Assembly: GCF_027359675.1 (NCBI RefSeq)
Contig: NZ_CP114786.1
Span: forward strand, 4,190,501-4,254,500
DNA: 64,000 nt
Origin: Roseibium sp. Sym1
GTDB taxonomy: Bacteria; Pseudomonadota; Alphaproteobacteria; Rhizobiales; Stappiaceae
Reading direction: 5' to 3'
Part shown: positions 2,801 through 47,343 of the stretch, one piece after another
How the letters are laid out: each line of letters starts with the position of its first letter
How positions within the stretch are numbered: the first letter of the stretch is position 1
Translations under genes and position numbers: made by a program
Notes under the pieces: model-generated
Seen by the model: only the letters and a program-made list of their open reading frames with translations
Told to the model about the DNA's origin: nothing
The model's database searches: none

Positions 2801-3020
2801 TGGATTGTTTCTCTTGCATGAGCATAAACGCGCCTCCGGGGGGAGGCGTTGTTCAGATCTTTCAGAAGATCTTTCGGGGTGGCTCAAGCAATCATGTCTT
2901 TGAGGTAACCGAACCAGGCCCTCGGGTCAATCCGCCGACCGCTCAAGTCAAAAGTGACTGCACCACCATCATTGATCGATCGAAGTTGCCGCGCGATGCA
3001 CGAATGGCATCGGATCCGAC

Positions 3021-3557
3021 TCAAACCGCGCCGGTGTACTCGCCGCGCGCCGGATAGTCGTTCTTCTGCACGAAATCGAGCGCGCCGACCATTTCCTGGA
3101 AATGCGGGCGCACGAACGGCATCGTCTGGACGGATGCGAAATAGAGCGTGCCATCCGGCCTGACCAGGAACACGCCCGGCTCGGAAAACAGCGCCGGTTC
3201 CTCGATGCCGATCGAGGTGGTGCCGCGGCTCGTGGAGATGAAGAGACCCCACTCCCGCGCGACGCCCAGCGGAAGGCCATGGCCGAAGCGCAGGTCCGGG
3301 TAGCCGACCTTGTCCGCCATTTGCCGGGCGCGGTCCTCGCCATCGGACGAAATCGCGATCGTCTTGACACCCTTCCCGGCGAAGTCCGGGGTCAGGCGGC
3401 CAAGTTCCTTCAGATAGGTGGCGCAGATCGGGCAGTGCAGGCCGCGATAGAACACGACAAGCGTCGCGAATCCGGCGCCGTCTGCGGCAAGATCGAATGA
3501 TCCGTGGTCGAGCGTATCGACGCTGAGATCTGGAACCGGCTGGCGTGGAACAAGCAT
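3021..3557 (-). CDS. peroxiredoxin-like (AhpC/TSA fold) protein
   Basis: This 178-residue thioredoxin-fold protein has the motif GLHCPICATYL with Cys42 and Cys45 at the position of the peroxidatic cysteine, followed by KTIAISSDG and a VFLVRPDGTLYF strand as in AhpC/TSA proteins. The CxxC arrangement is that of the peroxiredoxin-like subfamily of alphaproteobacteria rather than classic 2-Cys AhpC. It is predicted to be a cytoplasmic thiol peroxidase or reductase. It is divergent from an AraC-type regulator starting at 3668, which probably controls it. A truncated copy of its 3' end lies at 2324-2375. Confidence 0.87.
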   Translation of the reverse strand: MLVPRQPVPDLSVDTLDHGSFDLAADGAGFATLVVFYRGLHCPICATYLKELGRLTPDFAGKGVKTIAISSDGEDRARQMADKVGYPDLRFGHGLPLGVAREWGLFISTSRGTTSIGIEEPALFSEPGVFLVRPDGTLYFASVQTMPFVRPHFQEMVGALDFVQKNDYPARGEYTGAV

Positions 3558-5060: not shown

Positions 5061-5160
5061 CCAACCAAAGGCAGTGCTGCTGGAACGGTCACGGCATGGA
5101 TTGCCGGATCACGTCCGGCAATGACGAACGGAAGGGGGAGGCCGGGCGTTTCGGCAACCC

Positions 5161-17684: not shown

Positions 17685-17903
17685 GGATCCTTCGAGACGG
17701 ACCTAGCGGTCCTCCTCAGGATGACGACAGAAGGTTTGGCGAAGGGCAATCTTCTCCAACAGAACAAGCGGCCGGATCCTTCGAGACAGCGCTGCGTGCT
17801 TCCTCAGGATGACGACAGAAGGTTTGGTGGAAGGGCAATCTTCACCAATAGAACAAGCGGCCAGATCCTTCGAGACAGCGCTGCGCGCTTCCTCAGGATG
17901 ACG
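17685..17903 (+). repeat. three tandem hairpin repeats with 89-bp period (copies A, B, C)
   Basis: The cores at 17685-17726, 17774-17814 and 17863-17903 share the outer parts ATCCTTCGAGAC and CTCAGGATGACG, which can pair imperfectly. The inner stem differs: GGACC-TAGC-GGTCC in A, an AGCGC/GCGCT type in B and C. Core starts are exactly 89 bp apart, and the 47-48 bp between them is also conserved (GGCGAAGGGCAATCTTCTCC and relatives). It is not a CRISPR array: the spacers are repeats themselves. Confidence 0.9.
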
Positions 17904-18006
17904 ATAGTGGGTGTTGAAGCGCCTGTTAGCTGAATTAAGCCAAGTGCCTGCCACACTCCCAAGCGTCATCCTGAGGAGCGCGCTTTTGCGCGCGTCTCGA
18001 AGGATC
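17863..18006. repeat. left arm of the long inverted repeat around the GIY-YIG gene
   Basis: This composite of core C (17863-17903), a 60-bp spacer and an inverted core D (17964-18006, stem GCGCGC-TTTT-GCGCGC) is repeated in reverse complement at 18469-18611. C matches the reverse complement of G except at its first base. D matches that of F except at the loop and last base. The spacers share ATAGTGGGTGTTGA and CCACACTC ends. Confidence 0.85.
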
Positions 18007-18060
18007 GGCCCCTTGTTGGAAGTACTCGTTAAAAGTGTTCCGATGGGCTAAGCTCGCAGC

Positions 18061-18357
18061 ATGGGGGCGACCATCTACATCCTGCGTTGCGCGGACGGTA
18101 GCTATTATACCGGAATCACGGATAAAGACCTGGAAACCCGGGTGAGCGAGCATCGGCAGGGCTTACACGACGGCTACACGGCGCGGCGCAGGCCCATTAC
18201 GCTGGTCTACGATTGTCACTTTGAGCAGATTACCGACGCGATCGCCTGTGAACGGCAGGTCAAAGGATGGCGGCGGGAAAAGAAGGAAGCGCTGATCCGC
18301 GGGGATTTCGAATTGCTGCAAGAGTTGTCCAGGCGGGGTGTGAAAGCGAAGCGTTGA
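18061..18357 (+). CDS. small GIY-YIG nuclease, enclosed by hairpin repeats
   Basis: This 98-residue protein is a stand-alone GIY-YIG domain (UPF0213/YhbQ-like size). Catalytic positions are visible: Tyr6 in the IYIL strand, Tyr16 in YYTGIT, Arg27 and His31 in TRVSEHRQG, and the metal-binding Glu64 in ACERQVKGW. It should therefore be an active single-strand or structure-specific DNA endonuclease, with a basic C-terminus (SRRGVKAKR). The gene starts 54 bp after repeat D and stops 22 bp before repeat E, and about 144-bp inverted repeats bracket it. That layout suggests the enzyme and the repeats are functionally linked (hypothesis). Confidence 0.9.
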   Translation: MGATIYILRCADGSYYTGITDKDLETRVSEHRQGLHDGYTARRRPITLVYDCHFEQITDAIACERQVKGWRREKKEALIRGDFELLQELSRRGVKAKR

Positions 18358-18379
18358 GCAAGCAGAACGAGCAAACGGC

Positions 18380-18512
18380 GGACCCTTCGAGACGGACCTG
18401 ATGGTCCTCCTAAGAATGACGCTTGTGGGTTTGGCGAAGGGCAGTCTTCTCCAATAGAATAAGTGGCCGGATCCTTCGAGACGCGCGCAAATGCGCGCTC
18501 CTCAGGATGACG
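18380..18512 (+). repeat. two hairpin repeats, 89-bp period (copies E and F)
   Basis: Core E (18380-18421, stem GGACC-TGAT-GGTCC) and core F (18469-18512, stem GCGCGC-AAAT-GCGCGC) again start 89 bp apart, with the same internal sequence (GGCGAAGGGCAGTCTTCTCC) as the left array. E is the most degenerate copy (CCTAAGAATGACG). E begins 22 bp after the nuclease stop codon. Confidence 0.9.
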
Positions 18513-18611
18513 CTGTCGAGTGTGGCTGGTGCTTGGAATTCAATTTTTTCTGCGCCTCAACACCCACTATCGTCATCCTGAGGAAGCGCGCAGCGCTGTC
18601 TCGAAGGATCC
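18469..18611. repeat. right arm of the long inverted repeat around the GIY-YIG gene
   Basis: Core F, a 58-bp spacer and the inverted core G (18571-18611) form the reverse complement of the left arm at 17863-18006. The remaining sequence to the rpe stop (18642) is unassigned. Confidence 0.85.
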
Positions 18612-18641
18612 GGCCGCAAACTCCGGGCTACAAACTCAGAA

Positions 18642-47233: not shown

Positions 47234-47343
47234 CGTCATCCTGAGGAGCGCGCCAGGCGCGCGTCTCGAAGGATTGGCCTCCTGCTCTTTGAATTTGCCA
47301 CCCATCCTTCGAGACGGACCTGACGGTCCTCCTCAGGATGACG
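47234..47343. repeat. two hairpin repeats between rhaD and rhaI (copies H and I)
   Basis: Copy H (47234-47275, inverted; stem GCGCGCC-A-GGCGCGC) and copy I (47304-47343; stem GGACC-TGAC-GGTCC) are the same family as the repeats around the GIY-YIG gene at 17.7-18.6 kb. They sit inside the rhaD-rhaI transcript and could form RNA hairpins that affect processing or relative expression. Confidence 0.85.

Follow-up and report, generated by a model that had tools for sequence, protein, structure and literature searches.

The 64-kb window analyzed here, i.e., the whole 64,000-nucleotide stretch from Roseibium sp. Sym1, contains a small stand-alone GIY-YIG nuclease gene surrounded by copies of a hairpin repeat, which we term family A (Table 1). 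Scanning the window with the pattern TCCTTCGAGAC-N{5,35}-CCTCAGGATGA recovered six exact matches in the region from 17688 to 18608 and two further ones at 47236 to 47341, against a mean of 0.00 expected in the shuffled window. The six matches near the gene and one degenerate copy at about 18380 to 18421 account for the seven hairpin copies that the original prediction placed around the gene. The inverted arms that it described are likewise present, as an outer pairing of 66 nt (17857 to 17922 with 18552 to 18617; 97% complementary) and an inner pairing of 72 nt (17940 to 18011 with 18465 to 18536; 88% complementary). The gene-to-arm gaps of 54 and 111 bp hold for the composite arms but not for the nearest repeat, the degenerate copy, which starts about 22 bp past the stop codon.

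Table 1. The GIY-YIG gene, family A REP copies, and inverted arms in the window
Feature	Position	Strand	Basis
GIY-YIG nuclease gene, clade A, 98 aa	18061..18357	+	ORF, PF01541, tree, alignment
Family A REP copy 1	17685..17726	-	exact pattern; strand is the one with the CGTC tag 5'
Family A REP copy 2	17774..17814	-	exact pattern
Family A REP copy 3, outer part of left inverted arm	17863..17903	-	exact pattern, inverted-repeat pairing
Family A REP copy 4, closest upstream of gene, tag facing away	17964..18006	+	exact pattern
Family A REP copy 5, degenerate, closest downstream of gene, tag facing away	18380..18421	-	
Family A REP copy 6, inner part of right inverted arm	18469..18512	-	exact pattern
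Family A REP copy 7, outer part of right inverted arm	18571..18611	+	exact pattern
Left inverted arm (REP, ~60-bp spacer, REP)	17863..18006	.	inverted-repeat pairs
Right inverted arm (reverse complement of left arm)	18469..18611	.	inverted-repeat pairs
Family A dimer without gene, REPIN-like, outward tags, ~30-bp spacer	47234..47343	.	

The product of the gene was assigned to the GIY-YIG domain by profile search (PF01541; 55.2 bits against a curated cut-off of 22.6; E = 9.1e-15). The residues earlier read as an intact catalytic set (Tyr6, Tyr16, Arg27, and Glu64) fall in invariant columns of a 37-sequence alignment, as do Gly18, His31, and Lys68. A structure model (mean pLDDT, 79; pTM, 0.65) is best likened to the UPF0213 protein 1zg2 (E = 1e-5) and weakly to SLX1 (E = 0.02) and a UvrC domain (E = 0.2). 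By both sequence profile and fold, the UPF0213 proteins 1zg2 and 1ywl are the nearest solved structures; their entries give no function. Branched or damaged DNA is the substrate of SLX1 and UvrC, and SLX1 cuts the branched form; such cutting would suit an enzyme working on hairpins or cruciforms. GIY-YIG nucleases act in DNA mobility in homing endonucleases and in Penelope-like retroelements, from which the present system differs in its single-domain protein of ~95 aa, its hairpin-repeat ends, its many gene-free copies, and, as far as was noticed, its lack of an intron or reverse transcriptase.

The host genome (7.26 Mb in 5 contigs; 99.99% complete) contains 146 copies of the exact family A pattern and 0 of the reversed control pattern. 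Among the 100 of these 146 copies that were used, there are 32 adjacent pairs with a start spacing of 60 to 69 bp and their tags pointing outward. This is the REPIN or HH-dimer arrangement; inverted dimers across the genome are a feature of the REP/RAYT type, and a prevalence of tags-outward dimers is one of the CGTC-REP superfamily. Pairing is retained in 486 of 500 stem cells (five stem positions in 100 copies), compared to a mean of 300 and a maximum of 338 in 1000 shuffles; it is the hairpin that is conserved rather than any one stem sequence.

In the relevant passages of a 2013 survey (Di Nocera et al.; PMC3733652), most REPs fall into GTAG and CGTC repeats, with RAYTs hypothesized to be the movers of the former. 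The latter are described there as having a CGTC tag (often TGTC or CCTC), a stem starting from AT, a CCA tail, and HH dimers; they are mostly alphaproteobacterial and include the Neisseria repeat dRS3, with which CGTC-1 of the Neisseriae is equated. According to the same passages, CGTC REPs "apparently lack a dedicated transposase," and no transposase gene is flanked by them save in a few fortuitous cases; the authors suggest either that a dedicated enzyme was lost early or that various transposases move them. Family A resembles these repeats, dRS3 included, in its unpaired CGTC tag, its stem beginning with AT (as ATCCT), its outward-tag dimers, and its mostly alphaproteobacterial setting, and differs in its interrupted stem, its long and variable inner stem-loop, and a tail other than CCA. 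All of the canonical features (a stem of 8 to 9 bp starting from AT, a loop of 4 to 5, and a CCA tail) are found in many of the relatives' repeats. The repeats are CGTC-tagged REPs, with family A having an interrupted stem and a different tail. This identity, which places them in a known superfamily whose enzyme had been in question, was missed by the original prediction. A solo canonical CGTC-REP of a family other than A (CGTCATTGCCGGACGTGATCCGGCAATCCA) also lies in the window at 5097 to 5126 on the minus strand.

Four frames of the genome match PF01541, namely, the window gene, two further stand-alone GIY-YIG genes (loci L001 and L002), and a 664-aa frame that, judged by its length, is presumably UvrC. 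The two additional stand-alone genes and the 146 genome-wide copies go beyond what was observed initially. Each of these paralogs is, like the window gene, bracketed by a repeat family of its own, and no family A copies were found in L001, L002, or L004. Family B (TGTCACCC..GCCCACTCG; tag TGTC) is represented in the genome by 16 strict copies; L001 has three of these and, in addition, a degenerate fourth. Family B dimers with ~68-bp spacers lie on either side of that gene (1294 to 1455 and 1774 to 1933 of the locus), and the L001 unit is hence doubly bracketed. Family C (GTCATCCC..GGGATCC) has 9 genome matches, of which about five appear REP-like on visual inspection, including two at L002, where the tag is GGTC with a deviating first base. 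A single genome therefore pairs three stand-alone GIY-YIG genes with three different repeat families. The same genome has no match to the Y1/RAYT transposase profile PF01797 at an E value of 0.001, a search that was positive in 5 of 14 control genomes.

To relate the locus to its homologs, we assembled two samples. The first comprised 122 GIY-YIG loci, mostly from the order and class of the window, of which 121 were profile positive and 118 had sufficient flank. It included loci picked automatically from the best PF01541 matches (L005 to L033 and L094 to L122) and 60 stretches taken down the match list (L034 to L093). In drawing the latter, one row from the genome itself and one containing an in-frame stop were skipped, and rows further down the list were not used. 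Bracketing was defined as a best local match between the left and right 500-bp flanks scoring at least 20. By this measure, 78 of the 118 loci are bracketed (L016 and L038, which are one place, being counted twice), compared to 19 of 838 control windows from the same loci. A 28-sequence alignment was too diverse for scanning a collection of species genomes from bacteria and archaea; the second, named sample was selected from that collection solely by the peptide NGTLY[IV]GVT and consists of the best 80 of at least 587 relatives, 76 of them usable after four edge loci were set aside. Here, 62 of 76 loci are bracketed, versus 12 of 550 control windows. A CGTC-REP is present on either side in 70 of 76 loci (controls, 64/550) and on both sides in 58 (controls, 2/550), and 74 show bracketing, a CGTC-REP, or both. 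By their record titles, many of which denote metagenome bins, these loci come from Alpha-, Beta-, Gamma-, and Deltaproteobacteria, Chloroflexi, Nitrospirota, Saccharibacteria, Uhrbacteria, Bacteroidetes, Leptolyngbya, Armatimonadetes, and Neisseria.

At 52 of the 76 GIY-YIG genes, a REP lies no more than 150 bp away on each side, compared to 4 of 104 neighbor genes that have intergenic space on each side (8/245 among all neighbor genes). Of the 60 pairs of nearest REPs at named loci (a count that includes edge loci, the both-sides count being 58), 42 have outward-pointing tags, the median distances being 30 bp on the upstream and 20 bp on the downstream side of the gene. For the order/class sample, the corresponding count of outward pairs is 24 of 47. 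Enrichment of the repeat beside homologs, the check named beforehand in the original prediction, is thus seen in both samples and against neighboring genes, on which grounds we reject chance or positional clustering of REPs at GIY-YIG genes. Two loci have unusual arrangements. A record titled Neisseria gonorrhoeae DSM 9188 (L210) has a GIY-YIG gene with five dRS3-type CGTC-REPs per side. At L038, two convergent GIY-YIG genes (2360 to 2650 on the plus strand and ~2974 to 3225 on the minus strand) lie within ~900 bp; their products are 58% identical over 73 aa, and each gene is flanked on either side by canonical CGTC-REPs.

The 154 matches were reduced to 140 distinct GIY-YIG domains, the tree of which places the window gene in a clade of 30 tips (clade A; support, 0.943). 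A loose hairpin scan and a loose version of the family A pattern matched coding sequence; hence, stricter rules were used to count repeats by clade, with seven edge loci excluded. The canonical rule was taken from PMC3733652, and the A-type rule was composed after some of the clade A loci had been viewed. Under these rules, A-type repeats occur at 24 of 28 clade A genes versus 2 of 83 clade C genes, and canonical CGTC-REPs occur at 0 of 28 clade A genes versus 60 of 83 clade C genes. The Fisher P values for this matching are 4.5e-18 and 1.3e-12, with shared ancestry ignored; kinship between genes is unaccounted for in the Fisher and rank tests alike. The expected repeat is absent by the strict rules from 23 of 83 clade C and 4 of 28 clade A genes. 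Repeats of either type occur in 46 of 429 control windows and at 0 of 22 short GIY-YIG relatives, clade S having been set after the tree was viewed as proteins of ≤89 aa outside clade A, minus five loci and plus L011 and L112. Because these short relatives are without such repeats, the GIY-YIG domain by itself is ruled out as their cause. That nuclease clade and repeat type go together was not foreseen at the outset, and it is the strongest support for a repeat-dispersing nuclease.

We then compared repeat numbers across 249 genomes from the order, calling a clade A gene at an E value of 1.2e-19 or better and an identity of at least 47%. It is present in 24 of them; a few of these genes are partial or have in-frame stops (including those of G120 and G149), and the stop reported in the gene of G213 simply marks where a 94-aa frame naturally ends. 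Taking the excess as the count of a relaxed A-type pattern minus that of its reversed control, we found a median of 59 in the 24 genomes with the gene versus 6 in the 225 without it. Permuting labels within the 12 informative families gave a P value of 5e-5, the minimum attainable with 20,000 draws. With the strict A-type pattern, 13 of 24 genomes with the gene and 19 of 225 without it are positive (within-family P = 5.5e-4). The expectation that repeats would be more numerous in genomes with the gene thus holds, also within families, but with exceptions. In families f26, f32, and f33, gene-bearing genomes show no excess over the rest, and some genomes without an intact clade A gene are repeat rich (130, 99, and 103 A-type matches in G194, G143, and G155, respectively). 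Eight f33 genomes (G032, G103, G130, G155, G176, G195, G229, and G245) have many A-type repeats and no full clade A gene; in G032, the match is incomplete and broken by an in-frame stop. In these genomes, the repeats may outlive the gene or may be served by a different clade.

Individual sites were found in different states. Nine Sphingobium plasmid records were aligned over the interval between fnrL and a response-regulator gene (the remaining three of the 12 best records being 100% matches to the first). Four of the nine have a REP-gene-REP unit of ~383 bp, frameshifted in one, two have a solo REP, and three have neither; inspection by eye showed no target-site duplication. Over 40 kb compared among four of these plasmids, certain REP dimers occur in some but not in others. 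One such stretch of 123 bp, with a GTTCGGGCTGAGC..GTCGAAG inverted dimer of A-like appearance, occurs at L238:35608 and at the corresponding place in L240 and is missing from the related plasmids L239 and L241; it could be of use in finding junctions. Internally deleted copies lie between REPs in Sinorhizobium meliloti (L155), adjoining a full copy, and in L062 between REP-like hairpins that the strict rule leaves uncalled. Neither of two other Sinorhizobium loci (L236 and L237) matches L155 in blastn or contains a canonical REP under the rule used. In the genus-mate G213, the clade A gene (L124) matches the gene and repeats of the window in blastn but not their neighbors over ~1.5 kb per side, suggesting that it occupies a different genomic place over the extent compared. 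The site states and deleted copies show gain or loss as a unit, short of demonstrating transposition.

From these comparisons, we regard the linkage of clade A and clade C GIY-YIG nucleases to CGTC-REPs as well established, and we consider it probable that they are dedicated partners of these REPs and mobilize them. The comparative support comes from clustering at the gene, the match of clade to repeat, taxonomic breadth, association with copy number, and stem covariation, as well as from the lack of a detectable Y1/RAYT in the genome, the deleted derivatives, and the filled, solo-REP, and empty site states. The proposal of a non-RAYT repeat-dispersing nuclease is supported because the repeats are enriched at homologs and more numerous in genomes with the gene; nicking and mobilization as such we infer, as we do DNA cleavage, its position, and the copying step. 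The gene and its repeats would constitute a gene-bearing REP element, in which a stand-alone GIY-YIG nuclease is flanked by CGTC tags that mostly face outward. The nuclease would recognize the REPs of its own family in their folded hairpin form and nick the hairpin or cruciform during replication, whereupon REP dimers, with or without the gene inside, would be copied to new sites with the help of host repair. GIY-YIG enzymes hydrolyze DNA, and strand joining is not known for them; hence, the copy step would require host functions. The gene-free dimers would be the short nonautonomous form, as REPINs are to RAYTs.

Against mobilization stands the failure of copy number to track the gene everywhere, which could also reflect repeats outliving it. 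Also counting against it are the need for host functions in the copy step, the lack of a target-site duplication by eye, the clade C and clade A genes without their expected repeat, and the lower share of outward tags in the order/class sample. The main rival is homing, in which the nuclease cuts REPs as its targets and the gene invades existing REPs via break repair, another agent having spread them. GIY-YIG is a classical homing-endonuclease fold, some genomes are rich in A-type repeats without a clade A gene, and in two Sphingobium records a solo REP takes the very position that REP-gene-REP has in four relatives, a state compatible with the gene-in-own-site pattern of a free-standing homing endonuclease. 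Yet homing alone leaves the higher within-family repeat numbers of gene-bearing genomes unexplained, gene-free dimers greatly exceed genes (146 copies to one clade A gene), and three of the compared Sphingobium records have neither gene nor REP at the site; we regard it as unlikely. Less probable still is that the nuclease moves nothing and serves the host, trimming or resolving REP cruciforms or hairpins, or binds them for self-regulation. The likeness of the model to UPF0213 and, weakly, to SLX1 and UvrC domains would fit such a role, as would repeats near the gene on either side. However, a housekeeping enzyme has no need to sit amid copies of its own substrate, clade A is patchy across the order, and the filled and empty sites and deleted copies resemble mobile DNA.

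That the genes lie by chance in REP-rich intergenic islands, with no functional link, is hard to hold and, in our estimate, very improbable. REPs are indeed intergenic and occur on either side of some controls, but neighbor genes with intergenic flanks seldom have them on both sides, and neither the clade-repeat pairing nor the repeat-free short relatives would be explained. We give scarcely any credence to the remaining alternative, in which family A is moved by a RAYT, i.e., an HUH Y1 transposase, with the GIY-YIG gene as a passenger. In other bacteria, RAYTs are linked to REPINs and carry out REP processing, as described in PMC3116915 and PMC8266576; however, the PF01797 search rules out a RAYT as the family A mobilizer in this genome, barring a very divergent Y1 enzyme, and the passages of PMC3733652 on CGTC repeats record no flanked transposase beyond the fortuitous cases. 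The present system and the REP/RAYT systems (REPtrons, REPINs, and TnpA-REP; PMC3116915 and PMC8266576) have in common many short hairpin repeats, often in inverted dimers, a dedicated nuclease gene with copies of its own repeat family on its flanks, and covariation of enzyme and repeat. They differ in that the enzyme here is a GIY-YIG protein (PF01541) rather than an HUH Y1 transposase (PF01797), and the tags are of the CGTC type, family A being without the GTAG tag of RAYT repeats.

In the literature searched, with preprints and most subscription papers outside its scope, no title or abstract among the papers listed ties GIY-YIG to REPs, RAYTs, or CGTC repeats, and no paper has "GIY-YIG" together with "repetitive extragenic palindromic." The text of a Moraxella paper (PMC9465073) contains both "GIY-YIG" and "RAYT," and the passages concerned of PMC12306157, PMC5082802, and PMC8049555 do not name GIY-YIG.

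Mobilization by the nuclease would have a broader consequence, to which we incline by somewhat more than even chances: CGTC-REPs, including dRS3, may be the short forms of widespread mobile elements that have hairpin ends and clade-specific nucleases, with a ~95-aa GIY-YIG nuclease as their sole protein, and may represent a second, independently evolved REP spreader beside the RAYTs. For these widespread small repeats, reported in 2013 without a dedicated enzyme in the passages of PMC3733652 devoted to them, the clade-matched GIY-YIG nuclease is a candidate, and it opens the question of the CGTC-REP enzyme to direct tests that need no more than small proteins and short oligonucleotides. If true, this would add a further nuclease fold to the spread of bacterial repeats and would provide a function for many genes annotated as "putative endonuclease" or "GIY-YIG nuclease family protein."
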